A stretch of DNA of 22,280 nucleotides from a virus: positions 1 through 22,280 of IMG/VR virus record IMGVR_UViG_3300015374_000073; one strand, written 5' to 3'. The stretch's first letter is position 1. Every line of letters starts with the position of its first letter. Positions 832-18,660 of the stretch are shown here, one piece after another. Position numbers and translations under genes: made by a program. The notes beneath the pieces are model-generated. The model was not told the origin of the DNA. It saw only the letters and a program-made list of their open reading frames with translations, and searched no databases.

Positions 832-1605
832 GTGAGAGATCCTTCTGAGAAGGTCGTGGTCGGCTACCTGTCGCCCGGCTTGGTGCACTCCGGTTTCGCG
901 GAGTCGATGCTGGACCTGCTGGTGTACGACATGGCGTTCCACAAGCGGATCGTCAACGGCGGCGGCCGGCTGTGCACGCAGGCCGGGGCGAACCTGTCCG
1001 GGCCGCGGAACGGGCTGATCCGCAAGTTCCTGGCCTACGGCAAGGCTGACTGGTTGTGGTTGGTGGACTCGGACATGGTGTTCCGGCCGGACACGGTGGA
1101 GCGCCTGCTGGAGCACGCTGATCCGGTGACGGCACCGATCGTGGGCGGTCTGTGTTTCGGGTTCGACGACAAGGCCAACGTGCAACCCACGCTGTTTGGC
1201 CTGGTGGGGGATGAGGACAGCCCGCAGGTCATCCGCTATCACGAGTGGCCCCCGGACTCCATGTTTGAGGTGGCGGCGACCGGGGCGGCGTGTCTGTTGA
1301 TTCACAAGTCGGCGTTGGAGCGGATCCGGGATGTGCAGCTGCCCCGCCGCAACGGCCGGCCGGGCTATAACGACGCGTTCCCGTGGTTCCAGGAGACCGA
1401 GCACGACGGCAACCCGGTGTCCGAGGACATCACGTTTTGTTGGCGGGCGATCCAGACCGGCTGTCGGGTGTGGGTGAACACCGCCGTGCAGATCGGCCAC
1501 ATCAAGGACCGCGAACTCACCATGGACGTCTACCTCGCCGAGCGCGGGCTACTCAACGACCCCACGTTCGGGGCCGCTTTCAAGGAGCAGGAGAGCATCG
1601 GATGA
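832..1605 (+). CDS. GT-A-type glycosyltransferase
   Basis: This protein of 257 residues probably transfers a sugar from a nucleotide-sugar donor in the host cytoplasm. It has the pattern of phage GT-A enzymes: an N-terminal strand (VVVGYLSPGLVHSGF), a GPRN segment before a helix, and a strand leading into a metal-binding D-x-D (D79-S80-D81 in WLWLVDSDMVFRPD). A later ATGAACLL and a histidine-bearing IGHIKDRE segment near the C-terminus fit the acceptor half. The GTG at 832 was chosen because GGGAG at 817-821 lies upstream at a good distance; the longer frame from 793 runs through a hairpin. It is the first gene of an overlapped cassette with a second transferase, a methyltransferase and an epimerase. 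Donor and acceptor cannot be told; a virion protein is a plausible acceptor. Confidence 0.85.
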   Translation: MRDPSEKVVVGYLSPGLVHSGFAESMLDLLVYDMAFHKRIVNGGGRLCTQAGANLSGPRNGLIRKFLAYGKADWLWLVDSDMVFRPDTVERLLEHADPVTAPIVGGLCFGFDDKANVQPTLFGLVGDEDSPQVIRYHEWPPDSMFEVAATGAACLLIHKSALERIRDVQLPRRNGRPGYNDAFPWFQETEHDGNPVSEDITFCWRAIQTGCRVWVNTAVQIGHIKDRELTMDVYLAERGLLNDPTFGAAFKEQESIG

Positions 1606-1805
1606 GCAAGGTTCGGGTTAACGGCGAGCACGGCTTCGTCGGTCACGATGGTGTGCCGGTGTTGTTGGCGGGCGGCGACGAGTATGACTCGGAGCATCCG
1701 TTGGTGCAGGCCCGTCCGGAGTTGTTTGATGAGGTTCCGGAGCCGGCGAAGCGTGCGGTGTTGGGGCGGCCGCGTAAGGATGCGGATGAGAGCCCGCGCC
1801 GATGA
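1602..1805 (+). CDS. Small conserved-type phage protein, unknown
   Basis: This gene encodes 67 residues. Its ATG overlaps the stop of the upstream glycosyltransferase by four bases (ATGA), which indicates translational coupling. The sequence has an N-terminal beta-like part (KVRVNGEHGFVGHDG, PVLLAGGDEYD), then the segment EHPLVQARPELFDE and a basic tail (GRPRKDADESPRR). Proteins with the pattern 'DEYDxxHPLVxARPELF' are common as unnamed small genes near capsid genes of actinobacterial phages, from memory. It may be a small head-associated protein; no function is assigned. Confidence 0.75.
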   Translation: MSKVRVNGEHGFVGHDGVPVLLAGGDEYDSEHPLVQARPELFDEVPEPAKRAVLGRPRKDADESPRR

Positions 1806-1993
1806 ACACTCCGGATTACGGCCAGGTCGCCTACGAGGCGTACGTCGTCTCGGTGGGTGGTCGCTCGGTGAAGGGTGATCCGCTCCCTGCCTGGGCTGAC
1901 CAGTCCAAGCGAATCCAGGGTGCTTGGATCGCGGCGGCGGATGCGGTCCTGCAGGCCAAGCCTCCGGTCAACCCGCTAGGCACGGATGGCTGA
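1802..1993 (+). CDS. Small phage protein of unknown function
   Basis: This gene encodes 63 residues and starts with a four-base ATGA overlap with the upstream gene. It looks like a short helical protein: YGQVAYEAYVVSVGG, then GDPLPAWADQ and GAWIAAADAVL. Short proteins with a Trp in a final 'AWxAAAxAV' helix are frequent in phage genomes and are usually left unnamed. Its place within the cassette suggests co-translation with its neighbours rather than a shared function. Confidence 0.7.
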   Translation: MNTPDYGQVAYEAYVVSVGGRSVKGDPLPAWADQSKRIQGAWIAAADAVLQAKPPVNPLGTDG

Positions 1994-2201
1994 CGTGATT
2001 ACGGAGTCGCATGGCGTTCTTCGGGTTGAAGCGCCAGTGTCAAATTACGTTATCGAGCCCCATCGGTTTGCGCTCGGCCTGACCAAGGTCGAGATGGTCG
2101 ACGACCACCTGGCCCGGTTGATCGTGGACGGGAGGCATTGCAGCCCTGATGCCGACGCGCTGCTCGATGCGCGGGTCGCATTCGCGGTCTCGGATGCCTG
2201 A
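1986..2201 (+). CDS. Small protein of unknown function
   Basis: This gene encodes 71 residues. The ATG at 1986 overlaps the previous gene by eight bases (ATGGCTGA). The protein looks beta-rich in its first half (VLRVEAPVSNYVIEPHRFALGL, quoted only in outline), with VEMVDDHLARLIVDGRHC after it, then a short helix (ADALLDARVAFAV). No domain is recognised. Base use is a little less GC-strict than in the neighbours. Support comes from tight coupling on both sides. Confidence 0.65.
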   Translation: MADVITESHGVLRVEAPVSNYVIEPHRFALGLTKVEMVDDHLARLIVDGRHCSPDADALLDARVAFAVSDA

Positions 2202-2883
2202 TCTGGTTGTGGTCGTCCCGTCTCGGGAACGGCCGGGGCAGGCTCATGCGCTGGCGGCGGCGTTTGAGGCGACGTGCACGGCGGACACGCATGTGGTGTT
2301 CGCGGTGGATGACAACGATCCGACGAGGGCTGAGTATCCGGCCTGGACCGGGTTGTACAGGACTCAGGTCTTTCCGTCGCGGAACATGGGCGAGGCGCTG
2401 CGCTGCGCCGTCGATGTCGTGATCGCGGGGGATGCGTTCGCGGCGGGGTTTATGGGTGACGACCACATGCCGCGCACGGTCGGCTGGGATCAGGCATACC
2501 TCGATGCGCTGCACGAGCTCGGTACCGGGATCGTGTACGGGGATGACTTGCTGCAGGGCCGGGCGCTGCCGACGCAGTGCGCGATGACGTCGGACATCAT
2601 CCGGGGGTTGGGGTATATGGCGCCGACGTCGTTGGTGCACATGTATTTCGACAACTTTTGGGCGTCGCTCGGTCGCAAGGCTGGATGTATCCGGTATTTG
2701 CCGGATGTGGTGGTGGAGCACCGGCATCCGGTGGCGGGTAAGGCGGCGGTGGATGCCGGGTATGAGCGGGTGAACTCGCAGGCGATGCTGTCGCGGGATG
2801 AGGCCGCGTTCCTGGCGTATCTGGAGTCGGATTTCGACGCGGATGTGGCGAAGGTTCGGGCATTGCGGGGTGCCCATGTCTGA
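2194..2883 (+). CDS. GT-A-like glycosyltransferase (second)
   Basis: This protein of 229 residues is a likely second sugar transferase. The start is ATG 2194, overlapping the upstream stop by eight bases (ATGCCTGA); the longer frame from 2149 is an unsupported extension. The N-terminus reads as a GT-A nucleotide-binding strand (PDLVVVVPSRERPGQ). There are two acidic clusters, D39-D40-N41-D42 in VVFAVDDNDP and D89-D90-H91 in FMGDDHMPR; the second stands where the metal-binding DxD would be. Later come GTGIVYGDDLLQGRALPT and a conserved-looking HRHP segment. It overlaps the methyltransferase gene downstream. Transferase fold is fairly sure; substrate is unknown. Confidence 0.75.
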   Translation: MPDLVVVVPSRERPGQAHALAAAFEATCTADTHVVFAVDDNDPTRAEYPAWTGLYRTQVFPSRNMGEALRCAVDVVIAGDAFAAGFMGDDHMPRTVGWDQAYLDALHELGTGIVYGDDLLQGRALPTQCAMTSDIIRGLGYMAPTSLVHMYFDNFWASLGRKAGCIRYLPDVVVEHRHPVAGKAAVDAGYERVNSQAMLSRDEAAFLAYLESDFDADVAKVRALRGAHV

Positions 2884-3439
2884 CCGGGTCCGGCTGCGTC
2901 CCGCCTACTCGCCCGACGAGCTCGCCAGGATTTACGCGACCCCGCACGATCACACCCAGTGGCAGGACCATCTGGCGCGGGTGGTGATGACCGCCCAGTT
3001 CGTGCGTTCGGCGGCGGGGGCGATTCGCGGGGATGCTGCGGACTTGTCGTGTGGTGACGGCGCGATCCTGAAGTCTGTTGATGTTGAGGGTGTCCGCCTG
3101 TTCGGCGACTACGCCCCCGGCCACGAGTTCACGGGCCCGATCGAGGAGACGATCGACCAGATCCCCGGCGTGGACCTGTTTGTGTGCACGGAGACGTTGG
3201 AGCATCTCGACGACCCCGATCTGGTGTTGAAGCAGATCCGGGGCAAGGCCCGGTTCCTGGCGTTGTCGACCCCGATCGGGGCGTGGGGCGACACCAACCC
3301 CGAGCACTACCACGCGTGGTCGCGGGCGGGTGTGGAAGACATTTTGAACGCGACCGGATTCAGCCCGCACGCGTTCATGGAGTTGGACTACCGCCCGGCG
3401 GGTGGGGCTTACAGCTACGGGTGCTGGGTGGCCCGGTGA
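2876..3439 (+). CDS. Class I SAM-dependent methyltransferase
   Basis: This protein of 187 residues probably methylates a small molecule or sugar using S-adenosylmethionine. Motif I is seen as D56-L-S-C-G60-D-G62, a variant of the usual DxGxGxG. The post-motif acidic segment VDLFVCTETLEHLDDPDLVL starts at residue 99 and matches the Methyltransf-11/23 style, ending in an EH pair. The strand ARFLALSTPIG and the final GGAYSYGCWVAR fit the last beta strands. The start at ATG 2876 overlaps the upstream gene by eight bases (ATGTCTGA). Between a glycosyltransferase and a sugar epimerase, an O-methyl sugar is a reasonable product. A DNA or protein substrate is less likely because no target-recognition domain is seen. 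Confidence 0.8.
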   Translation: MSDRVRLRPAYSPDELARIYATPHDHTQWQDHLARVVMTAQFVRSAAGAIRGDAADLSCGDGAILKSVDVEGVRLFGDYAPGHEFTGPIEETIDQIPGVDLFVCTETLEHLDDPDLVLKQIRGKARFLALSTPIGAWGDTNPEHYHAWSRAGVEDILNATGFSPHAFMELDYRPAGGAYSYGCWVAR

Positions 3440-4335
3440 AGGCGCTGGTCACGGGGAGCGAAGGCTTCGTCGGCCGGCACATGGTCACGGAGCTGTACCG
3501 GCGCGGGTACCGGGTTGAGCAGTGCGACCTGAAAACCGGTGACGACCTTGTCGACGTGTGCAGGTCGTCGCTGAAGACGGTGTACGACCTGGTGGTTCAT
3601 TGCGCGTTCCACGTCGGGGGTCGGGCAGCGATCGACGGCGAGCCCAGACTGTTGGCGCGTAACCTGCAGTTGGACTCGGCCCTGTTCGACTGGGCAACAA
3701 CCACTGGGCAGGGCCGGGTCCTTTACTTTTCGTCGTCGGCGGCGTACCCGGTGCATCTGCAGGTGTCGCCGCTGCTTGGTGAGGATCTTGTCGAGACCGA
3801 CATCGATCTGGACGACGTTGAGCAGCCTGATGCCCGGTATGGGTGGGCGAAGCTGTGCGGCGAGCAGTTGGCGCGGGCGGCTCGTGAGTCTGGGCTTCCG
3901 GTGACGGTGGTCAGGCCATTCAGCGGGTACGGCGAGGACCAGAGCAGTGATTATCCGTTTCCGTCGATCGTGGAGCGTGCCCGCGCCCGCATGGATCCGT
4001 TCCCGGTTTGGGGTCCGGGGACGCAGGTCCGGGACTGGGTCCACACCGACGACGTGGTTGAGGGTGCGCTCGCGGTGGCCGAGTCCGGCACCGACGAGCC
4101 GGTCAATCTGTGCACCGGGGTGGGTACGTCGATGTTGGAGCTCGCGCAGCTGTGTTGCGAGCAGGTCGGTTACACGCCGGTGTTTGAGCCGCGGCCGGAT
4201 AAGCCGACTGGTGTCGGCTACAGGGTGGGGGATCCGGGCCGGTTTCACCGGTGGACGGGTCTGACCCCCCGGGTGACGCTCGAAGAGGGCGTGCGGCGGG
4301 CGTTGGCGGCGGCGCCGTCTCCGCAGCCTGTGTGA
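3436..4335 (+). CDS. NAD-dependent sugar epimerase/dehydratase (extended SDR)
   Basis: This protein of 299 residues is an extended short-chain dehydrogenase/reductase that likely alters a nucleotide sugar in the cytoplasm. The Rossmann motif TG7-SE-G10-FV-G13 is at the N-terminus; FSSSAAYP (residues 98-105) gives the catalytic Ser region, and Y135-GWA-K139 is the YxxxK pair. VVRPFSGYG and RDWVHTDDVVEG are the usual substrate-side segments of this family. The GTG at 3436 shares four bases with the upstream stop (GTGA); the longer frame from 3184 is rejected because it covers the methyltransferase. It ends the overlapped cassette and may supply the donor sugar for the two transferases. The exact reaction (epimerase, dehydratase or reductase) cannot be read from sequence. 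Confidence 0.88.
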   Translation: MKALVTGSEGFVGRHMVTELYRRGYRVEQCDLKTGDDLVDVCRSSLKTVYDLVVHCAFHVGGRAAIDGEPRLLARNLQLDSALFDWATTTGQGRVLYFSSSAAYPVHLQVSPLLGEDLVETDIDLDDVEQPDARYGWAKLCGEQLARAARESGLPVTVVRPFSGYGEDQSSDYPFPSIVERARARMDPFPVWGPGTQVRDWVHTDDVVEGALAVAESGTDEPVNLCTGVGTSMLELAQLCCEQVGYTPVFEPRPDKPTGVGYRVGDPGRFHRWTGLTPRVTLEEGVRRALAAAPSPQPV

Positions 4336-4362: not shown

Positions 4363-4662
4363 ATGTCTGAAAACACCCCGACGAGGACCTCTGTGGCGGC
4401 GTCCGCCACGGTGGTCAATCTGTTTGCGGCGGTCGGGGTGGGTGCGACCAGCGGCGGCAACGCGGTCAACCGGATCGTGTTCAACGACTCCACAGCCACC
4501 CTGTACCTGGGGTATGGGGCTGCGACGACCACGACCGACTTCAGTTACAAGATCGACCCGGCTGGTACCTGGGAAGCTCCTGCCCCGGTGTTTGACGGGT
4601 TGATCACCGGGATTTGGTCGTCGGCGACGGGTTCGGCCCGCTGCACCGAGGTCACCGTCTAA
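4363..4662 (+). CDS. Small beta-rich virion protein, possible decoration protein
   Basis: This protein of 99 residues has a clear binding site (GAGGGGAA) before ATG 4363. It is rich in Ser, Thr and Ala (TSVAASATVVNLFAA), followed by IVFNDSTATLYLGYG, a Thr run (TTTTDF), and the end ITGIWSSATGSARCTEVTV. Small phage proteins with 'NDSTAxLYxxxG' and 'GIWxSATGxARxTE' are common in phage structural regions, from memory, usually without a set function. Standing alone between the cassette and the connector gene it could decorate the head. Its many Ser/Thr residues would suit O-glycosylation by the upstream enzymes, but this is inference. Confidence 0.7.
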   Translation: MSENTPTRTSVAASATVVNLFAAVGVGATSGGNAVNRIVFNDSTATLYLGYGAATTTTDFSYKIDPAGTWEAPAPVFDGLITGIWSSATGSARCTEVTV

Positions 4663-4669
4663 CGCACGA

Positions 4670-4709
4670 CGCCCCCGAGTAGAGAGCCTGAGGCTCTAAC
4701 CCGGGGGCG
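4670..4709 (+). terminator. Nested two-part hairpin after the small virion gene
   Basis: The outer stem pairs CGCCCCCG at 4670-4677 with CGGGGGCG at 4702-4709 (8 bp). Inside it, AGAGCC at 4683-4688 pairs with GGCTCT at 4692-4697 around a TGA loop. The block begins 8 bases after the stop codon at 4662. No T-run follows. Terminator or mRNA 3' stabiliser are both possible. Confidence 0.55.
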
Positions 4710-4767
4710 AAGGCGGACAGGATTCCCCGGCGTCCCGGGCCCTCCCGTGTCTTCACGTTAGCACCGT

Positions 4768-4803
4768 TCACGCCCCTTCTAGTCCGTGATGAGAGGGGCG
4801 TGA
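4768..4803 (+). promoter_or_regulatory. Inverted repeat covering the start of the connector gene
   Basis: TCACGCCCCT at 4768-4777 is the exact reverse complement of AGGGGCGTGA at 4794-4803, with a 16-base loop. The 3' arm contains part of the purine-rich binding site (GAGAGG from 4791) and the GTG at 4800. Folding of this RNA would hide the translation start, so it could lower or time connector synthesis. The pairing is seen; the regulatory role is inferred. Confidence 0.45.
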
Positions 4804-5171
4804 TCGGTGTGCCCTGGCCACCCCAGTTGGAGGACCTGAAGGCCGAGTTGCGGATCGATGCGGCCGATACCGCTGACGACGCCAACCTGCAGGTCGCGCT
4901 CGACGCCGCGGTGGAGTACGCCGAGGAGAAGCGGGCGGGGGATTTCAACTTCTCCGGCGCCACCACCGGCGACGAAGCGTTGCTCCCGCCGCCGTCCCGG
5001 AAGATTCATATGGGGACGCTCAGGTTGGCGGTGCGGGAGCACACGTTGCGCCGCTCCCCCGACGGGATGATCGACAACGGGGAGTTTGGTCGGGTCGCGG
5101 TCCCGCGCGGCATGGCCGACATCGAACTCCTGCTCGGTATCGGCGCCTACCGGAAACCGATCGTGCTGTGA
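4800..5171 (+). CDS. Head-tail connector, gp6-like adaptor
   Basis: This protein of 123 residues is expected to form a ring under the portal that joins head and tail. It shows the usual shape of the family: a helical start (PQLEDLKAELRI, then DDANLQVALDAAVEYAEEK), a short central part, a long helix (SRKIHMGTLRLAVREHTLRRS), and an end with DIELLLGIGAYRKP. GTG 4800 is chosen as the first in-frame start, but its spacing to GAGAGG is short (3 bases); GTG 4809, 12 bases from the same site, is an alternative. An inverted repeat covers this start. It overlaps the next gene by four bases. The call rests on fold pattern and gene order. Confidence 0.75.
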   Translation: MIGVPWPPQLEDLKAELRIDAADTADDANLQVALDAAVEYAEEKRAGDFNFSGATTGDEALLPPPSRKIHMGTLRLAVREHTLRRSPDGMIDNGEFGRVAVPRGMADIELLLGIGAYRKPIVL

Positions 5172-6494: not shown

Positions 6495-6791
6495 ATGTTC
6501 AAGTTTTCTTGCCATCCCGACGGTGGCCCGTCGTTCACGGTGATCGCCCGATCCAGAGCGATCTCGGCGTGGGAGAACGCCCCCGGCCAGCCCAAGGGTG
6601 AGCGTCGCAGCCTCGGCGACTTCACCAAAAACCTGTCCATGGTCGACACCGTCGATCTGGCCTGGTACGCCGCGTCGAAGGCCGGGAAAACCGACCTGGA
6701 CATCATCGAGTGGCGTAAGCAGGTCGACGTCGACCTCGAGGAGTACGACGACGCTGTAGACGGGCCGGGGCCTACCGAAGTGGCTCCCTGA
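6495..6791 (+). CDS. Tail assembly chaperone, short form (gpG-like)
   Basis: This is the zero-frame product, 98 residues. It starts at ATG 6495 seven bases after the upstream stop. Segments include FKFSCHPDGGPSFTVIARS, a middle with GDFTKNLSMVDTVDLAWYAA, and an acidic C-terminus (QVDVDLEEYDDAVDG). Position just before the tape-measure region, and a second open frame in -1 downstream, are the marks of the gpG/gpT pair that holds the tape measure protein during tail assembly. It is not expected in finished virions. Confidence 0.75.
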   Translation: MFKFSCHPDGGPSFTVIARSRAISAWENAPGQPKGERRSLGDFTKNLSMVDTVDLAWYAASKAGKTDLDIIEWRKQVDVDLEEYDDAVDGPGPTEVAP

Positions 6792-6976
6792 GCCACACCC
6801 TCGTCGCTCTGATGCTCCGCACGTCGATCCCAATGGATGTGTGGATGCGGCAGCCGGAGGGCTGTATCGAGACGGCGATCCGGATGGTCAACGAGCAGGA
6901 CGTGATTGACCGCGAAGACCAGACCGGGCAGGGCGACGACCGCTTCAGCGGGCCGGGTCCTCAGATGAGTGGCTGA
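6495..6976 (+). CDS. Tail assembly chaperone, frameshifted long form (gpGT-like)
   Basis: A -1 shift near 6767-6773 would join the upstream gene to the frame 6770-6973 (stop TGA 6974-6976), giving about 160 residues. The added part contains LVALMLRTSIPMDVWMRQP, then AIRMVNEQDVIDRE and a Gly/Asp-rich tail ending in GPGPQMSG. This -1 frame has no good start of its own; the first ATG in it is at 6812 without a clear binding site. In lambda and most siphoviruses this arrangement makes gpGT, which is needed with gpG for tail assembly. The frame is seen in the bases; use of the shift is inferred. Confidence 0.7.
6767..6796 (+). promoter_or_regulatory. Programmed -1 frameshift signal
   Basis: The zero frame reads G GGG CCT at 6767-6773, where the Gly-decoding tRNA can re-pair fully on GGG one base back; the second codon re-pairs less well, so it is not a perfect X-XXY-YYZ site. 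Six bases later GTGGCT (6780-6785) pairs exactly with AGCCAC (6791-6796) across a five-base loop, and the zero-frame TGA straddles the loop and 3' arm. The spacing suits a stimulatory hairpin. Confidence 0.6.
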
Positions 6977-7429: not shown

Positions 7430-10315
7430 ATGGCGTCGGTGCGTTCCACCATTGAGCTGCTCATCACCGGGTCGACCCGTGGGTTGGGTGCGGCGGCGGC
7501 TGAGGCGCGGGCGATGGCCGACCGGGTCGCCGCCGCCGAAGACCGGGTGTCCGCCGCCCGGGTTCGCTCTGCTGCGGCGGAAGAGCGGGTCCGGGTTGTT
7601 GAGGAGCGGCTGTCCGCGGCCCGGGCCCAGCAGGAAGCCGCCCTGTCCCGGGTGGGGGTTGCGGAGACCAACCTGGCCCGGGCTCGTGAAGCATCTTTGG
7701 GCTCGACGACCCGGTTGTCGCAGGCGCAGGCTGATTTGGACGCGGTCCGTTCCCGGTCGGGGGCGACTACCGATGAGATCGCCGCGGCGGAGGAACGGGT
7801 CACCCGCGTCCGGCAAGAGGCGGACACGGCAGCGGCCCGCCTGCAGGCCTCCGAAGCCCGCCTGGCGTCTGCTCGTGCCAATGCGGACCAGTCGTCGGCG
7901 CGGGTGGCTGCGGCGGAGGCGGCGATCAACCGGGCCCGGTCGGACGCGATCCGGGCCAGTGAGGATCTGGCCCGCCGCGAGAACGAGCTCAACCGGATCC
8001 GCCGCACCGGCAACAACGACATCGACCGACAACGCTCCGGTCTGTTGGGTGTGTTCGACGCGGTCGGCCGCCTGGCGGATGCGTTCACCGGCGCCGACGG
8101 CGCCTCCACGAGTTTCTTGTCGAAGATGGCCGCGCTGAACTCGGTGGTGTCCAGCATCGGCGGCCCGATCGTGCAGGCCGTGGTCGGTGTCCTCGAGCTG
8201 GTGGCGGTGATGTCCGCTCTCGGTGAGATCGTCGGGATTGTCGGCGGCCTGATCGGGCAGGTGTTGGGCGGCGTCGTTCCGGTGCTGCTCACGTTGGGCG
8301 CGGCGGCGGGCACGGTCATGCTGGGCCTGGACGGTATCCAGAAGGCTGCGGAGGCGGCCGCGCCGGCGTTTGAGCGGCTGAAAGCAGCCGTGTCCGGCGT
8401 TTTCGTGCAGCAGCTGACCCCGGCGTTCAAGGAGCTTGCCGGGGTTCTGCCGCAGTTGACGAACGGGTTCAAGGGGATCGCTCTCGCCATCTCCGGCCTG
8501 ATCAAAAACGTGATCGACTTCATCGCGTCAGCCCAAGGCATCCAGGCCCTCAACGCCATCCTGTCCGGCACCGAAGGGTTCGTCCGCGGCCTGTCCGCGG
8601 GCGTGAAGGAACTCGTCCAAGGGTTCATCCTGGCCGGGTCGGCGGCGGCGCCGGCGATGGGCCAACTCGGCGACGCGATCGGTTCGGTGTTGGGCCGGAT
8701 CGGCGAGGTCCTGACCCGGTTGTCCCTCGACGGTGTGTTGCAGAAGGCTGTTCAGGGGTTGGCGGCGACGATCAAGGGGTTGGGTGACGTCGTCGCCCCC
8801 GTGATCGAAATCTTTATTCGGATGGGCGCCGCCATCGGCAGCACGGTGGGGCAGTCCCTGTCCGAACTCGGGAAGATCATCGAGACGACGACCCCATTCT
8901 GGGAAAACCTGGCCAGGGTCGCCGGGGAACTCCTGCTGTCCGCGTTCCAGCAACTCGGCCCGCCCATCGAGCGGCTGCTGCAATCGTTGCTGCCCGGCGC
9001 CACCAACGGGATGGACGCCTTCGCGAGGATCATCGAAACCCAGGTATTTCCCGCCATCGGCCATTTTATCGACTGGCTGCGCACCGACGGCATCCCCGGG
9101 ATTGTGGCGTTCTTCCTGGCCGCGACCGTCAACGCCCTGACCTTCGCCTCCACCTTCACAGGCGTGATCGCCAGCATCCTCGGCGTGCTGTCGGGGTTCT
9201 TCGGCGCCATGGCGCAGGCCTTGGCACCGTTCGATGCGGCAGCCGAGCAGGCGTTCCAGCAGGCCGCCGCCGCAACCGGAGCGTTCAAGGATCAGCTCGT
9301 CGGGCTCAAGGCTGGCATCGACGGGCTGAAGGACAAGGCCGTCAAGGTACAGATGCAGGTGGCGGGTGGCGACGCCGTCAGAGGCCTGCAACTGCAGGTG
9401 GATGGCATCCACGACAAGTTCGTCAACATTTTCGCCGGGGTCACCGGCACCCCGAACCTTGTCGACATGAAAAACCAGATCGCGTTCATCAACAGCAAAA
9501 AGGTTGATGTAGGGGCCGCGGTCACCGGCACGCCGCAGGTTGGGGAGTTGGCCACCGGGATCGCCGGGGTCAACCCCAAAGTGGTCACCGTGACCGCCAA
9601 CGTGCCGCAAGGCCCGAACCTCGGCGCGCAAGGCAACCAGGTACTCACCGGTGCCATCGCCGGGGTCAACAGCAAAACTGTCACGACCACCGGCAACGTG
9701 CCGGAAGGCGCCACCCTGGGCAAGGCGGGCAACCAGCTACTCAAGGCGGCCATCGACGCCGTCATCCCCAAATCCGTGACGACCACTGGGAACGTGCCGG
9801 GCGGGCCCACGCTCGGCACACAGGGAAACCAGGCGCTCACCGGAGCTATCAACAACGTCAACAGCAAGACCGTGGCGGTCAACGCCAACGTCAGCGGAAC
9901 GGGCGAGGTTAATTCGTTGGCTTCGGCCATCAACGCCCTTCACGACAAGGTCGTGAACGTCGTGACGCATGTGCAGCAGGTCTTCGGGTTCCGTAAGGGC
10001 GGCTCGGTTCCCCCGAACTCGACGATCCTGGTTGGTGAGGACGGGCCGGAGCTGCTCCAGATCGGCAGCCGGGGCGGGTTCGTCACCAACGCCCCACGCA
10101 CCCGCGCGCTTCTCAACTCGGGCCCTAACAGTGCACCGTCTGTCAGGCCGGGAACAGCCTCCCCGGACAACACAGAAACCGGTGGCGGCGGCCCGATCAC
10201 CGTCAACGTCATGCTCTCGCAGGAGCAGATCGCCGGGATCGCCCAAGCCGAGATAATCCGGCAGAACCGCGCCACGAAACGCACCGTCCTCGCCGGTACC
10301 GGCGTCACCTTCTAG
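7430..10315 (+). CDS. Tape measure protein
   Basis: This protein of 961 residues sets tail length and lies inside the tube; at about 0.15 nm per residue it predicts a tail near 144 nm. The start is ATG 7430, just after the upstream stop; the longer frame from 7400 lies within the previous gene. Residues about 25-195 form a long Ala/Arg/Glu coiled coil. Residues about 234-303 and 557-598 are strongly hydrophobic (GGPIVQAVVGVLELVAVM, TVNALTFASTFTGVIASILG), as expected for a protein that enters the cell membrane. Residues 636-839 hold an array of 27- and 32-residue repeats. The C-terminus has FGFRKGGSVPP and VGEDGPELLQIGSRGGFV, the common tape-measure ending. No lysozyme or peptidase domain is recognised. 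Confidence 0.95.
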   Translation: MASVRSTIELLITGSTRGLGAAAAEARAMADRVAAAEDRVSAARVRSAAAEERVRVVEERLSAARAQQEAALSRVGVAETNLARAREASLGSTTRLSQAQADLDAVRSRSGATTDEIAAAEERVTRVRQEADTAAARLQASEARLASARANADQSSARVAAAEAAINRARSDAIRASEDLARRENELNRIRRTGNNDIDRQRSGLLGVFDAVGRLADAFTGADGASTSFLSKMAALNSVVSSIGGPIVQAVVGVLELVAVMSALGEIVGIVGGLIGQVLGGVVPVLLTLGAAAGTVMLGLDGIQKAAEAAAPAFERLKAAVSGVFVQQLTPAFKELAGVLPQLTNGFKGIALAISGLIKNVIDFIASAQGIQALNAILSGTEGFVRGLSAGVKELVQGFILAGSAAAPAMGQLGDAIGSVLGRIGEVLTRLSLDGVLQKAVQGLAATIKGLGDVVAPVIEIFIRMGAAIGSTVGQSLSELGKIIETTTPFWENLARVAGELLLSAFQQLGPPIERLLQSLLPGATNGMDAFARIIETQVFPAIGHFIDWLRTDGIPGIVAFFLAATVNALTFASTFTGVIASILGVLSGFFGAMAQALAPFDAAAEQAFQQAAAATGAFKDQLVGLKAGIDGLKDKAVKVQMQVAGGDAVRGLQLQVDGIHDKFVNIFAGVTGTPNLVDMKNQIAFINSKKVDVGAAVTGTPQVGELATGIAGVNPKVVTVTANVPQGPNLGAQGNQVLTGAIAGVNSKTVTTTGNVPEGATLGKAGNQLLKAAIDAVIPKSVTTTGNVPGGPTLGTQGNQALTGAINNVNSKTVAVNANVSGTGEVNSLASAINALHDKVVNVVTHVQQVFGFRKGGSVPPNSTILVGEDGPELLQIGSRGGFVTNAPRTRALLNSGPNSAPSVRPGTASPDNTETGGGGPITVNVMLSQEQIAGIAQAEIIRQNRATKRTVLAGTGVTF
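9335..9946 (+). repeat. Seven degenerate repeats within the tape measure protein
   Basis: Residues 636-839 fall into seven head-to-tail units, each starting K-x-V: units 1, 2, 3 and 7 are 27 residues and units 4, 5 and 6 are 32 residues. A partial eighth begins at 840 (KVVNVVTHV). The 32-residue form has KxVTTTGNVPxGxTLGxxGNQ then a helix-like part ending in xVNS or xVIP. The longer units carry a five-residue insertion after the NVP turn. Seen directly in the translation. Confidence 0.8.
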
Positions 10316-10331
10316 CTCCCCAGGAGTGACA

Positions 10332-10889
10332 TTGTCTGCCGACATCTGGCTGCCCCCTGCCCAAAACCGGGACCTGATCAGCTGGCACGGACACGCCAAG
10401 GTCGAAAAGTTCGACGGCGACGACGACGTCACCCCCATCTGGCACGGACCGGACGGGGACCTGCGGCTGAACCCGGTATGGCGGCGTCGCGCCACCCCGT
10501 ATGAGGTGGTCGAGGCCGAAAACCTGATGCTCACCGCCGGGGCCACCCTGACCCTCAACCGGCTGGCCGGGATCACCTCTACCGCGATCGATGCCACCAA
10601 CGGGCGGATCGCCGTCGGGGACGGCGTGACGGCGGTGACGGCCGGGCAAACCGATCTGCAGGGCACCAACAAGTATCGGCAGGTGTTCGACTCGGTTCCG
10701 TCTGTTTCCGGGAACCAGTTGCAGGCGGTGGCGACGGTGGCGGCCGGGAGTGCCACGTTCACCTGGAATGAGGCGGGTTTGGCGAATAGCGCATCCGGGG
10801 CCACGTTGGTGAATCGCTTTTTGCAATCGTTCGGCGCAAAAGGCGCCGGGGTTCAGTGGATTATCACCATAACACTCACACTTAGTTAG
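10332..10889 (+). CDS. Minor tail protein, tail-tip or fibre-like
   Basis: This protein of 185 residues starts at TTG 10332, with AGGAG at 10322-10326 five bases upstream; the GTG at 10326 overlaps that site and is less likely. The sequence includes RRRATPYEVVEAENLMLTAG, then GRIAVGDGVTAVTAGQTDLQG, FTWNEAGLANSASG and a final LQSFGAKGAGVQWIITITLTLS-type strand (quoted in outline). Proteins with 'VGDGxTAxxAxQTDLxG' and 'FxWNEAGLxN' are common among actinophage tail genes after the tape measure, from memory. Its last 80 bases are more AT-rich than the rest of the gene. Confidence 0.65.
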   Translation: MSADIWLPPAQNRDLISWHGHAKVEKFDGDDDVTPIWHGPDGDLRLNPVWRRRATPYEVVEAENLMLTAGATLTLNRLAGITSTAIDATNGRIAVGDGVTAVTAGQTDLQGTNKYRQVFDSVPSVSGNQLQAVATVAAGSATFTWNEAGLANSASGATLVNRFLQSFGAKGAGVQWIITITLTLS

Positions 10890-10947
10890 TGCAGACTTTG
10901 TGCTAAATAGTGATCAACCTCTGACCAGCGAAGACAGGAGCTGATCA

Positions 10948-12420
10948 GTGGGGCTGCGTCGCAACGGTGTCGTTAACCCGGCCTTAAAGAACAACATCAC
11001 CGGTACTGGGACGAGCACCGACTGGACGTCGTCCCCCGCCGGCTACACCCGCCAGACCGGCGTGACCGGGATGTCCCGCACCACCGGGTTCGGCGGGTCC
11101 GGGGCGATCGACTTTGTCACCACGCCGCGGTTCGCGGCGGTGGCCGGGCAGCAGTACATGGCGTCGGTCCAGGTGAAGACCGGCGCTTCGAACTCGTTCA
11201 AAATGCTGATCAACTGGTATTCGTCGATGACGGGTGCGTTCGTCAGCAACTCGGGCACGAGTGTGCCGTTCACCGTGAACGGCACCAGCCGGGTCGAGAT
11301 CGGCCCGTTCACCGCTCCTGTGGGTGCCGGGGCCGGGTATCTGCGCATCATCGAACTCGACGCGACCACGGTCACGCTGACCGCGTTGATGGTCGAGCAG
11401 ACCACCGCGGCCGGCAACACCTACTTCGACGGCGACACCGGCGGCGCGTCCTGGGAGGGCACGGCCGGGAACAGCCCCTCGGTGTTGCTCACCGCCGCGG
11501 ACACGGTCACCGCGACGGATGCCGGGTCGAAAACGGTCACCCCGTCCGGACCGACCGGTGGCGACACCGCATCGTTCACCGCGTCGGCGTCGGTTGTCGC
11601 CTCCGGTGTCGCCGATGAGTTCGCCACCGTCACCGACTCCGGTCTGATCGTCGCTCTCACCTACGACGGCCGGCGGGGCCGGGTCCGGGTGAACGCGGTT
11701 GGTCTGCCTGTGACGGCGTTGCGGGCGGTGGTTGATTCGCGGCCGGTGAACGGCACCCGGTGGACCACGGTGCGCGGCGGGAAGGTCGCCGTGTCCGGGG
11801 GCGTGTTCGCCCGGAATGTCGATGACTACGAGTTCACGTCCGGGGTAGCGAACACCTATCGGATCCGGGCGTTTTCCACCCCGGAGCGGGTGCCCGATGT
11901 GGTGGTGGCGCAGGCGACGGTCACCCTGGCCGCAGTGCTGGACGAGGTGTGGCTGAAGTTCATCGCCGCCCCCGTGTTCAACCGCCGCGTGCAGTTGATC
12001 GACTGGTCGGACATCACCCGCCCGTCCCGGTCCACGTTCTACGACGTGCAGGGCCGATCGGACCCCATCGGCGTGTTGGATGTGGCCGGCTCCCGACGGG
12101 TGACCGTCGAGTTGCGGACGTCGACGAAGGCCCAAGCCGACGACCTCGACTATGCGCTCGCGCAGGGGATGCCGCTGTTTCTGCATGTCCCCGAAACCGT
12201 CGCGCTCCCCAGTCTCTATGCGGCCGCGGGGGACGTCTCTTCTACCCGTCCGTCGAAGCTCACCCAGGTCCGGTATTGGTCGATCCCGCTCACGGAGGTC
12301 GCCCCTCCGCCGGCGACGGTGGTCGGCGCCGCCTCCACCTGGCAAACCATCATCGACGCGTACGGCTCGTGGGCTGACGTTTTGGATGCGTTCCCCACCT
12401 GGCAGGAGGCGTCGGGCTGA
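10948..12420 (+). CDS. Minor tail protein with N-terminal carbohydrate-binding-like domain
   Basis: This protein of 490 residues starts at GTG 10948, with AGGAG at 10936-10940 seven bases upstream. Residues about 8-165 look like a jelly-roll binding domain of the kind at the start of many phage tail proteins (NPALKNNITGTGTSTDW, then AAVAGQQYMASVQVKTG, and TYFDGDTGGASWEGTAG at the end). A Ser/Thr-rich bridge follows. Residues about 230-490 form a beta-rich domain with RRGRVRVNAVGLP, VFNRRVQLIDWSDITRP and SRRVTVELRTSTKAQADDLD, which resembles tail-tip proteins encoded before the hub gene. The end TWQTIIDAYGSWADVLDAFPTW has two similar short Trp-bearing segments (TWQTIIDAYGSW and ADVLDAFPTW). 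It overlaps the next gene by one base (TGATG). Confidence 0.65.
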   Translation: MGLRRNGVVNPALKNNITGTGTSTDWTSSPAGYTRQTGVTGMSRTTGFGGSGAIDFVTTPRFAAVAGQQYMASVQVKTGASNSFKMLINWYSSMTGAFVSNSGTSVPFTVNGTSRVEIGPFTAPVGAGAGYLRIIELDATTVTLTALMVEQTTAAGNTYFDGDTGGASWEGTAGNSPSVLLTAADTVTATDAGSKTVTPSGPTGGDTASFTASASVVASGVADEFATVTDSGLIVALTYDGRRGRVRVNAVGLPVTALRAVVDSRPVNGTRWTTVRGGKVAVSGGVFARNVDDYEFTSGVANTYRIRAFSTPERVPDVVVAQATVTLAAVLDEVWLKFIAAPVFNRRVQLIDWSDITRPSRSTFYDVQGRSDPIGVLDVAGSRRVTVELRTSTKAQADDLDYALAQGMPLFLHVPETVALPSLYAAAGDVSSTRPSKLTQVRYWSIPLTEVAPPPATVVGAASTWQTIIDAYGSWADVLDAFPTWQEASG

Positions 12421-15400
12421 TGTTCCCCGTCTCCCAACGCTTCCTGGACACCATCACCGGCACCCATCACGCCGTGTCGCGGGCGCTGCTGTTGACCGAA
12501 ACCCAATTCGGGCCTACCCCCGACGGTGTCGAGCTCCCGATCCTGTCCGGGGACGTCAAGTTCGCCGCCACCGCCGACAACAACTCCACGTTGGAGTTGA
12601 CGGTGCCCGGGGACTATTGGGAGAAGGTTCAGCCCTACGGCGGCGAGGTCTGGGCTGCCCGCGGTGTGGCGTTCGGGGACGGCACCCAAGAGTTGGTGCC
12701 GCTCGGCTACTTCCGCATCGACGAAGTCGAAATCGACGACGCCCCCTACGGCCCGGTCCGGCTGTCCTGCTCCGACCGCGTCTCCCAGCTGAAGCAGAAC
12801 CGGGTTTTGTACCCGTTCCAGGTCCCCGAGGGGTATTCGCACCGGCAGCTGTTTGAGCGGCTGGTCAACGGCCGGCTGTCCACCGGCGGCGGCACCGCCC
12901 CGGACAAGACCCAGGCTGCGGAGCTCATCCACGACCGTTTCCTGCTCGGCCAGGAGATCGGCACCGACTGGACGTGGACCGGGGCGCCGGACCTCGTCAC
13001 CACCTACCACACCGAACTGGTGACGGCGTGGGGCGGGAACAGCCTGATGCCCGCGCAGACCGAGGCCGCGCTGCTCATCGACAACCGCATCCTGGCCCAC
13101 GCCTCTATTGAAACCGACTGGACGTGGGCCGGGATGCCCCCGATCGTCGGCACCTACCACGCTGCCCTGGTCGCCTTGTACATCGCCGCCGGTTCCCCGG
13201 AGCCGACAGCCTGGCTGCAGACCTACATCACCGCCAACGGCGGCACGATGCCCACCCAGACCCGGGCGGCGACAGTCATCCGGGCCCGTCTGGAGTCCGG
13301 GCTGCCCATCAACCCGGACTGGACGTGGGAAGACCCGCCGTCGATCGTCACCACCTACGCTCCGACGATCGTCGGCCTGTATCCGGGCGCCTGGGACGAC
13401 CGGCCGACGGCGATCGCCTGGATCATCAACTACATCGCCAACAACGGTGGCGGTGGGCCACCGGACCCGGTGACGTGGCTGGAAAACTATGTCGCCGCGA
13501 ACGGCGGCTACGCCACGATCAACTCGCTCGGCTACGCCGCCCTGATCCAAGGGCCGGCCATCCCGATCGTGTGGAACGGGTATGACCCGGACCGGGCGTT
13601 CATCACCGGCGGCCCGGTCGTGGAAAACTCCACCTACGACTTCATGTCGAAGTTGGCGGACAGCCGCGGGTGTGTGTTGCGGTTCGACGAGTTCGGCCAG
13701 CTGAACATTGATGTGCGGGACCCGGACCCGGGTTCGGCGCCGGTCTATTCGATCGCGCCGGGACAAACCGGAAACCTGATCAAAGCCAGCCGGAAGACCA
13801 CCCGCGACGGCTACTACAACATCGTTGTCGCCTACGGCTCCGATCCGGCCGCCCCGACCGGCTACCGGTTGGCGTACAACAACGACCCGAACAGCCCGCT
13901 GCGGTGGGACTCCCAGTACGGCGCCGCCGCCCGCTACTACGCCTCCCCGCTGCTGCGTACCCCGCAGCAGGCCGCGGACGCCGCCGCGGCGGTGCTGTCC
14001 CACTACACCGGTTTGCCCACCACCTTGGGCTTGTGGACGGTGCCGAACCCGGCGCTCCGACCGTTGGACGCGATCCAGGCGAAGATCACCGGTCTGGCTG
14101 AGACCCACATCGTCGACACCGTCACCATCCCGCTCGCGATCGCCGGCGCCGGACCGGTGGAGATCGCCACCCGCACCCTGAACGAGGTGTTGATCCCGGA
14201 GACGGTCGACGGCACCAGCAGCGGCGGCTCCGACACCGGCACCGACCAGCCCACCCCGGCGCAGATCGCGCAGGAGAAAGCGTTCGAGCTCACCTCCACG
14301 GCAGAAAACAGCACTGTGCAGTGGTGGAACCAGTTCTCCTACCTCGAAGACATCGGCGACGGCCGCGGCTACACCTGCGGCATCGCCGGGTTCACCTCCG
14401 CCACCGGCGACCTGCTCGAGGTCGTACAAAGCTACGCCTCCACCAAACCGGGCAACGTCCTGGCGCCGTTCATCCCCGGCCTGACCACCTGCGCCAACGC
14501 AGGCATGGGCGGCACCGCGTCCACCCTGGCCAACACGAACCTGGGCACCCCGTTCAAAACCGCGTGGGCCACCGCTGCCGCGGACACCGTGTTCCAGACG
14601 GTGCAGATCAACTACCGCAACCAGGTGTACTGGACGCCGGCGTTCAACATCGCAGTCGGCGACGCACTGTCCAACCTCGGTTTGGCCATCTACTACGACA
14701 CCTCGATCAACCACGGCATGGGGTCGCCGGACGAGAACGACGGCAGCTTCGACGACATCTACGCGGCCGCCGACGTGAACGCGAACCAGGCCGCCCGCCT
14801 CATCCTGATCCGCATCCGCTCGGGGCAGACCATCCTTGAGGACTGGACGTGGCCGGGCGCACCAGCGGTGGTGGGCACCTACAACGACACCCTGCAAACG
14901 GCATGGACCGGGGCCGGGTCCCCGGACGCGGCGACCTGGCTGGAGCAGTACTGGCTGACCGCGTTCCTCGCCGCCCGCGGCGCGGTGCTCACCGCGTGGG
15001 GTGACAACCCGTCCGACGGCCGCATCCACATGTTCACCGTGCTGATGGCCACCGGGAACATGACCCTGACCACCCCTTTTACGTGGTCGGTGTACGGCGA
15101 CACCTACACCATGTCGACCGACCAGTTCCCCTACGGCTGGGTCGGCGGCAACTCGGGTGGTGGGTCGGTCACCTTCCCCAACCCCGGGGTGGCGCACAAC
15201 ATCGGCTCCGCCCCGGGCCAGAACTCGTTCAACCTGGGGGTGGGGTTCGACGGCGACCCGACGTTCGGCACCACCCACCACGACTTCTCCCGCGACGAGA
15301 TCGCCGCCGGGCTGATTGTGCCCGGCTACTACGAGCTCAACCCGGCCGGTGAAGTTGTGATGACCGCCCACCCCGGCGGCGGCAAGACCAGCAGCAAAAC

Positions 15401-17735: not shown

Positions 17736-18361
17736 TCCCGCATGATGTGGGCGTAGCGTCGATGGGCTTCCTCCTGCCAGGTCTCGCCTCGACACCGTTG
17801 GAAGCCGTCACGTCCGCGGTTGTAACGGGTCCGTTCGCGCCCTTGTTGTCGCAGCCGCTCGTCGTGCAGAGCGTTGGCTAGCGACAATTTGCAGGCCAAG
17901 CAATTGCGCCCGGCGCTGGACGCGACGAGGTTGGGTGCGACGAGCAGGTGGCCGAGCTCGTCGCGCTTTTTTCGGGCCTGGACGTGGTTACCGTTCTCCA
18001 CGTTGTCGTCGGAGTTCTCTGAGTACGTGCCCCAGCGTAGGTTCTCGATGTGGTTGTGGGCGGGGTCATCGTCCTCGTGCAGGCCGTTCGGCTTGTCGGG
18101 CGGCGGTTCCCCCTTGAAGGCTCTTAGGACGAGCCGGTGGACCTTGACAGCCGTGAGGTTCCCGCGCCCGTCCGCGAGTTGGACGCTCCGGTATCCGTGG
18201 GGCTTGACGACGCTGAGCTTTAGCATCCGCCCCTTCCGCAGGGTGCGGGTGCCGAACCGGTTGCCGCAGTATGCGTCGAGGCTGCGGACGCGGCCGTGAG
18301 AGCTGACCTCGTAGCGGTCTTCGTAGCCGGGGACCGGTCGCCACTCCTCGGGGGTGGTCAC
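17717..18361 (-). CDS. HNH homing-type endonuclease with NUMOD4-like N-terminus
   Basis: This protein of 214 residues is probably a site-specific DNA-nicking or cutting enzyme that spreads its own gene. The start is GTG at complement 18361, six bases after GGGAG and overlapping the upstream stop by four bases (GTGA). Residues 1-20 read EEWRPVPGYEDRYEVSSHG, the typical NUMOD4 start. Then KVHRLVLRAF, LHEDDDPAHNHIENLRWGTYSEN supply the HNH_3 core, with NCLACK and a later RCRGE giving a possible Zn-binding tail. Its 3' end overlaps the end of the convergent giant tail gene by 19 bases. It is one of only two minus-strand genes, which suggests an insertion. Confidence 0.88.
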   Translation of the reverse strand: MTTPEEWRPVPGYEDRYEVSSHGRVRSLDAYCGNRFGTRTLRKGRMLKLSVVKPHGYRSVQLADGRGNLTAVKVHRLVLRAFKGEPPPDKPNGLHEDDDPAHNHIENLRWGTYSENSDDNVENGNHVQARKKRDELGHLLVAPNLVASSAGRNCLACKLSLANALHDERLRQQGRERTRYNRGRDGFQRCRGETWQEEAHRRYAHIMRDYAGGL

Positions 18362-18660
18362 AGCAACTCCCGATGGAGCTTGGTGAGACTGATCTCGCCG
18401 TCGACGTAGGCCCAGAAGGCGGTTGTGCAACCTTCCTCACCTGCGACGAAGCGGGAGTTGAGCAGTACGTCGATCGCCGTGTTCCAGCGCTCCTCGCTGG
18501 CGCGCCGGTCGTGCGCACTCCGGCGAACATCACACGCTCGGTCGTTTCGACACTCCCACGTGTCGTTGTCTCCGCCAGCCGGGAAGTAGCTGCGCTTGCT
18601 TGTGCCGATCCGGTGACAAATGCGGCATTCATAGAACTTCAACGGGTTCATGCCTTGCAC
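18358..18660 (-). CDS. Small Cys4 zinc-ribbon-like protein next to the HNH gene
   Basis: This protein of 100 residues has C12-x2-C15 and C37-x5-C43 (ECRICHRIG, ECRNDRACDVRR), a likely zinc-binding pair of knuckles. The rest is helical (SAHDRRASEERWNTAIDVLL, FWAYVDGEISLTKLHRELL in outline). The start may be GTG at complement 18660, four bases after GAGG, or ATG at complement 18651 in frame; the first is given. It is coupled to the HNH gene by a GTGA overlap, so the two move and act together. It may help DNA binding by the nuclease or be a regulator; function is not known. Confidence 0.65.
   Translation of the reverse strand: MQGMNPLKFYECRICHRIGTSKRSYFPAGGDNDTWECRNDRACDVRRSAHDRRASEERWNTAIDVLLNSRFVAGEEGCTTAFWAYVDGEISLTKLHRELL

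Follow-up and report, generated by a model that had tools for sequence, protein, structure and literature searches.

Published cases of virion glycosylation are so far limited to a few mycobacteriophages. In Corndog-type phages an O-methyltransferase and three glycosyltransferases are encoded in the structural operon, and both capsid and tail tube were reported to be glycosylated (PMC4351075, PMC11600133). Che8 gp110 has been reported to be essential for capsid glycosylation (PMC12363180), and a review describes A197 of Sulfolobus turreted icosahedral virus (STIV) as essential and as a possible glycosyltransferase of the STIV coat protein (PMC10551542). Here we analyze a stretch of 22,280 bp from the IMG/VR virus record IMGVR_UViG_3300015374_000073 (the window), which is the structural half of an actinophage genome and carries two glycosyltransferases (GT1 and GT2), a methyltransferase (MT) and a sugar epimerase or reductase (EPI) directly after the gene for the major capsid protein (MCP). 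We propose, with a probability of roughly two in three, that this block is a late-expressed virion-glycosylation cassette of two modules that would place a methylated glycan on the capsid.

Organization of the cassette

All genes of the locus lie on the + strand, in the order MCP C-terminus, a gap, GT1, s1, s2, s3, GT2, MT, EPI, s4, connector and tail genes. The cassette and its borders comprise:

1-468, + strand: C-terminal part of the HK97-fold MCP, the left border (PF05065, Phage_capsid, E=4.9e-14); the N-terminal part lies outside the window and the protein is full-length in IMGVR_UViG_3300015371_000267
832-1605, + strand: GT1, glycosyltransferase of GT-A fold with a GTG start, proposed initiating capsid-protein transferase (PHROG match, invariant residues, model fold, co-inheritance with MCP)
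1602-1805, + strand: s1, conserved 67-aa small protein near MCP and GT1 (weak match to phrog_9538, head-tail connector; kept in relatives)
1802-1993, + strand: s2, 63-aa small open reading frame (ORF), observed in this phage and in the near-identical contig but in no other relative
1986-2201, + strand: s3, 71-aa small ORF, likewise observed in these two alone
2194-2883, + strand: GT2, glycosyltransferase of GT-A fold, proposed chain-extending transferase (PHROG matches, invariant GDDH motif, model fold, relative in the Pas34 N-terminus)
2876-3439, + strand: MT, small class-I S-adenosylmethionine (SAM)-dependent methyltransferase, proposed sugar O-methyltransferase (weak Pfam match; core conserved in 14 relatives)
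3436-4335, + strand: EPI, NAD-dependent nucleotide-sugar epimerase or reductase of the extended short-chain dehydrogenase/reductase (SDR) type (PF01370, 3.4e-35; PDB matches; alignment)
4363-4662, + strand: s4, 99-aa protein between cassette and connector (ORF reading)
4800-5171, + strand: gp6-like head-tail connector, the right border (PF05135, 4e-4; phrog_5938, 1.7e-6)

Read directly, the cassette ORFs overlap their neighbors by 4 or 8 bp throughout. The first-pass annotation had described an overlapped block of two GT-A-like transferases, a methyltransferase and a sugar epimerase in the structural operon, and the ORFs, profiles and models bear this out for the four enzymes; it had passed over the three small ORFs at 1602-2201, and its GT2 start is corrected here to 2194. 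The connector scores slightly under the PF05135 cutoff in the window and over it in relative L012. A second contig, IMGVR_UViG_3300015371_000267, is 99.9% identical and adds the upstream 3.7 kb, containing the remainder of MCP and upstream structural genes.

Linkage to the capsid gene

To guard against ascertainment bias, related IMG/VR contigs, which are often fragments, were retrieved by their match to MCP and not to GT1, with MCP identity measured to relative L011. GT1 lies within 4.5 kb in 34 of the 35 contigs whose MCP shares 55% identity or more with that of L011 and which extend at least 2.5 kb downstream, and the cassette of these GT1-carrying contigs mostly includes GT2, MT and EPI in the same order. 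The sole exception, L113, has a short interval between MCP and connector that lacks the cassette. GT1 follows MCP in 4 of 7 contigs at 45-55% MCP identity and in 5 of 14 below 45%; some loci beside these more distant MCPs have GT1 with no recognized GT2, MT or EPI, which fits GT1 as the core enzyme. When GT1, GT2, MT and EPI were each used as query, the sets of contigs found overlapped.

The standing order in the relatives is MCP, GT1, s1, GT2, an optional second methyltransferase or extra glycosyltransferase, MT, EPI and connector, with some gains, losses and shifts of s1. The ratio of nonsynonymous to synonymous substitution rates (dN/dS) against L011 is 0.18-0.39 for the four enzymes. Judged from sequence comparison, the arrangement is not due to chance, as the order recurs in dozens of contigs, the active sites are invariant and dN/dS is low. 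This leaves a passenger block of sugar genes, set beside MCP by chance mosaicism and with no role in the virion, scarcely credible, given that all four enzymes are under purifying selection and that nearly every member of this MCP clade has kept the block beside MCP.

The whole MCP-GT1-GT2-MT-EPI set is also found in Spongiactinospora rosea LHW63015, on a 1.06-Mb contig, and in S. gelatinilytica 7K107, and relatives of GT1 are present in actinomycete genomes. The cultured relatives Kita, Eyre, Sbash and prophiGD02-2 have MCPs 33-44% identical and no annotated glycosyltransferase or epimerase between the MCP and connector genes; prophiGD02-2 has one gene there annotated as an oxidoreductase. 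A DNA-level search of phages returned no match, nor did a tblastn search of phages with MT.

Several variations on the locus were observed. An extra family with an RDxDSR motif and no Pfam match (L020 200-880, L028 2296-2976, L029 1559-2812, L033 8681-9955) lies in or beside the cassette, is sometimes fused to a methyltransferase and is likely another transferase. In L025 an insert of ~3.5 kb with minus-strand genes (9981-13500) separates MT from EPI. Within MCP, a Ser or Thr at T336 (L011 numbering) is found in nearly all MCPs with a full cassette and is rare in cassette-less relatives; from this alignment T336 is a candidate glycosite, the one clear case and only a lead, as the pattern is confounded by ancestry.

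Two evolutionary modules

We correlated pairwise protein distances across 27 genomes (Pearson unless stated); as related sequences are not independent, the coefficients describe a pattern and not a strict probability. The correlation is 0.93 for MCP and GT1, 0.13 for GT1 and GT2, and 0.67 for GT2 and EPI, with MT at 0.40 to EPI and 0.25 to GT2. When the five most divergent genomes are left out, the 22 that remain yield 0.80 for MCP-GT1, 0.22 for GT1-GT2 and 0.75 for GT2-EPI, and Spearman values for this ingroup are 0.72, 0.02 and 0.70. A first, smaller set of 15 had given 0.58, 0.27 and 0.75. The difference between the correlations stays positive on subsampling. In the 22 genomes with a protease gene, GT1 follows MCP at 0.89, compared with 0.81 for the MCP-adjacent protease itself.

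Physical distance does not explain this pattern, since the median spacing is 181 bp between the uncorrelated GT1 and GT2 and 1.1 kb between the correlated GT2 and EPI. The correlations and spacing together therefore imply a recombination joint between GT1 and GT2, as far as sequence distances can tell. A functional tie of GT1 to MCP would be the natural cause of the pattern, if not the only one. The block had previously been taken as a single cassette, a view that holds for the block itself and overlooks this split. At a little under even odds, we tentatively suggest that GT1 founds a protein glycosyltransferase family, new and dedicated to the capsid, whose members coevolve with their own MCP and are accompanied by an exchangeable GT2-EPI-MT glycan module. 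If true, related actinophages would retain the sugar anchor while exchanging the outer glycan, in the way that bacteria exchange O-antigens.

Identity of the enzymes

GT1 and GT2 both have the fold and the DxD-type metal-binding motif of GT-A enzymes, according to models and alignments, with Foldseek matches to GT-A enzymes at a probability of 1.00. The match of GT1 to Pfam is weak and slightly under cutoff (1.4e-4), and it matches PHROG glycosyltransferase 34859 at 9.5e-16. In the alignment of relatives, both Asp of DSD at 79-81 are invariant, as are E198-D199 and H223. The predicted GT1 model, built from 22 sequences, is GT-A-like with a predicted local distance difference test score (pLDDT) of 87. 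Its top Foldseek match is STIV A197 (E 6e-10, 16% identity), followed by collagen galactosyltransferases, LH3, mimivirus R699 and polypeptide N-acetylgalactosamine transferases, so that its fold matches are mostly protein glycosyltransferases. These matches, together with the co-inheritance with MCP, are the grounds on which a protein acceptor is proposed for GT1. A distant GT1 relative (28%) also lies close 3′ of the capsid gene in the unrelated phage MW202462.

For GT2, the PHROG matches are glycosyltransferase families at 2e-48 and 2e-40, and the GDDH motif is invariant in its family. Its predicted model (pLDDT 91) has PcManGT, TarP, TarS, WrtF and chondroitin polymerase as best Foldseek matches, and by these best matches GT2 appears closest in fold to glycan or teichoic-acid transferases. 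In several contigs, and in Pas34 of the Actinoplanes phage phiAsp2, GT2 is fused to a second methyltransferase; the methyltransferase part of Pas34 is PF13578 and its record notes a putative O-methyltransferase. One PHROG containing GT2 carries the label DNA methyltransferase because of this Pas34-type fusion.

MT matches Pfam methyltransferases weakly (0.005, under cutoff). Its core, ADLSCGDG...CTET-EH-DDP, is conserved in 14 relatives, and DLSCGDG resembles Rossmann motif I. EPI belongs to PF01370 (E=3.4e-35) and shows the extended SDR epimerase features, with G7/G10/G13 (GxxGxxG), S99/S100 and Y135/K139 (YxxxK) invariant in the alignment. Its closest solved structures are UDP-glucose 4-epimerase, MoeE5, which we take to be a UDP-glucuronate 4-epimerase, and GDP-fucose synthases.

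We considered more exact chemistries for EPI, and neither NCBIfam nor PDB matches allow a single assignment. For GDP-L-fucose synthase, EPI reaches 78 bits against a cutoff of 500 (NF047922). The dTDP- and GDP-sugar 4,6-dehydratases follow the rule of a T-D-E catalytic triad; EPI has SSSAAYP where the triad is expected, and it scores far under the cutoff of every NCBIfam equivalog. Sequence and structural matches make EPI most likely a C4-epimerase or a keto-reductase.

No member of the sugar-nucleotide pyrophosphorylase family PF00483 (NTP_transferase) was found in 13 related contigs, and therefore the precursor of the donor probably comes from the host as a nucleotide sugar; this disfavors a donor made from scratch by the phage. 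No transmembrane segment was found in any of the four cassette enzymes.

Proposed function and alternatives

The genes, their order, conservation and active sites, the co-inheritance and the model folds are read from the sequence; for acceptor, donor, order of steps and benefit, we infer the following. GT1 would act in the cytoplasm as a GT-A transferase devoted to its own phage's MCP, attaching the first sugar directly from a host-supplied nucleotide sugar to a Ser/Thr or other side chain of MCP. GT2 would add a further sugar, EPI would turn a host UDP-, dTDP- or GDP-linked sugar into the epimer used by GT2 or GT1, and MT may cap the glycan with a methyl group. The capsid would end up covered with a short glycan bearing a methyl group, which could serve to mask the virion or protect it. 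A custom virion glycan, as first suggested, is thus the best-supported reading, through the linkage to MCP, the co-inheritance of GT1 and MCP, the protein-transferase-like fold of GT1, the late structural operon and the lack of membrane segments; the sugar and the role of MT remain predicted.

Several observations weigh against this reading. The window enzymes have no blastp or profile homology to the proven transferases of Che8 or the Corndog-type phages. The Foldseek likeness is at the superfamily level (TM score about 0.5-0.6) and the fold does not fix the acceptor, while the assignment of MT to the class-I SAM-methyltransferases is weak by sequence. The same correlations could arise with no functional tie between GT1 and MCP if recombination favors a point between GT1 and GT2. 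Additionally, a distant GT1 relative in ct2KA10 adjoins repetitive, tail-fiber-like genes, and no capsid gene was recognized near another in LR756501.

The same enzymes might instead glycosylate another virion protein, such as the tail tube, the connector or s1/s4. Corndog-type phages glycosylate both capsid and tail tube (PMC11600133), and the cassette adjoins the connector genes as well; however, GT1 tracks MCP, in a comparison where genes past the connector were recovered in few loci, and we judge a target other than MCP unlikely. We likewise regard as improbable that the enzymes act on the host envelope (on wall teichoic acid, arabinogalactan or some other polymer) and thereby prevent superinfection or re-adsorption, whether in lysogens or at a late stage of infection. 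The resemblance of the GT2 model to the wall-teichoic-acid transferases TarP and TarS and the two complete cassettes in actinomycete genomes would fit such a role, but every full-set copy lies in the late structural operon after MCP and none in a recognizable lysogeny region. Nothing of the gtr type is seen, as there is no GtrA/GtrB-like partner anchored in the membrane and the cassette enzymes have no membrane segment, and wall modification does not predict that GT1 diverges along with MCP.

Glycosylation or other modification of phage DNA, which phage glycosyltransferases perform elsewhere, is very improbable. GT2 relatives do occur near replication genes in Stanwilliamsviridae, and a PHROG containing GT2 is labeled DNA methyltransferase, but that label stems from the fusion described above, the cassette lies in the structural operon, and 10 related contigs of 39-62 kb, possibly incomplete, show no thymidylate-synthase-type hydroxymethylase (PF00303). 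Glycosylation of MCP thus remains the reading we prefer.

Other features of the window

The 363-bp gap between MCP and GT1 holds two strong hairpins and a 53-aa ORF, and a third hairpin follows s4:

516-555, + strand: very stable RNA hairpin after MCP, no T run (-33.5 kcal/mol, z=-5.7)
577-738, + strand: small ORF, 53 aa, with a D-M-x-x-A-C-x-x-A motif (ORF reading; similar small ORFs after MCP in some relatives)
774-812, + strand: second stable RNA hairpin, directly 5′ of GT1 (-37 kcal/mol for 755-832, z=-2.9)
4670-4710, + strand: stable RNA hairpin 3′ of the cassette (-36 kcal/mol for 4660-4730, z=-4.3)

These three GC-rich, very stable hairpins without T runs bracket the cassette; they may act as terminators or as RNA processing sites and so keep MCP at a far higher level than the enzymes. 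Rfam gave no match, and a sigma-70 promoter scan found nothing above chance. L013 and L025 likewise have small ORFs after MCP, with a D-M-S-x-A-C-like motif; in L012, L015, L019, L022 and L037 the place is taken by other small ORFs.

Among the tail genes, a 1771-aa tail protein (12420-17735) combines DUF5047 and a repeat region with a GH46 chitosanase domain (PF01374, E=8e-52), which shares motifs with the solved chitosanase 1chk, and a PL7-type alginate lyase domain. Streptomyces phages, among them DrGrey (about 38%), have comparable chitosanase domains, a likeness that suggests a Streptomyces-like host or a polyglucosamine target. A NUMOD4/HNH homing-type endonuclease gene is inserted among the tail genes (17717-18430, - strand). 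At 6495-6976 lies a tail assembly chaperone-like pair (6495-6791 and a short ORF at 6833-6976), possibly joined by programmed frameshifting.

Comparison with known systems

Corndog-type phages (cluster O), for which Firecracker stood in, with Firecracker gp36 for Corndog gp38, resemble the window in having a methyltransferase and several transferases in the structural operon. However, their genes lie between portal and capsid protease, before the capsid gene and with no epimerase, whereas the window cassette follows MCP and includes one, and we detected no sequence homology to GT1, GT2, MT or EPI. Che8 (cluster F) gp108-gp110 are also phage-encoded transferases, but lie at the right genome end with no methyltransferase or epimerase adjoining and have no profile similarity to GT1 or GT2. 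STIV A197, the best fold match of GT1, is a minimal viral GT-A enzyme whose supposed substrate is the major coat protein; it differs in coming from an archaeal virus with a double-jelly-roll capsid, in its 16% identity and in being a single gene without a glycan module.

Two further systems share the GT2 family. In Pas33-Pas34-Pas35 of phiAsp2, the N-terminus of methyltransferase-fused Pas34 is 41% identical to GT2 and has glycosyltransferases on both sides, but this group lies after the tail genes and no GT1 or EPI relative was found there. The glycosyltransferase-glycosyltransferase-nucleotidyltransferase trio of Stanwilliamsviridae (e.g., Blueeyedbeauty gp76-78) includes a GT2 family member at 38% identity, but is near replication genes and has a nucleotidyltransferase in place of EPI and MT. 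We also observed this trio of GT2 relatives as a conserved unit in Streptomyces and Arthrobacter phages of 130-195 kb (L004, L005, L003), in some near replication genes.

An enzyme set unrelated in sequence to those of the mycobacteriophages is thus nearly fixed beside one capsid lineage of uncultured actinophages, and its presence in culturable Spongiactinospora makes it testable. A capsid-bound transferase with a swappable glycan module offers a concrete hypothesis for sugar-coat variation in phages, which bears on the recognition and stability of the phage particle. By analogy, the cassette would resemble the virion glycosylation of Che8 and Corndog in how it works, but by sequence it is a member of neither system. 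Sugar-coated phages are known; this enzyme set and its pattern of inheritance, with GT1 passed on with the capsid and the sugar makers swapped, appear to be new.

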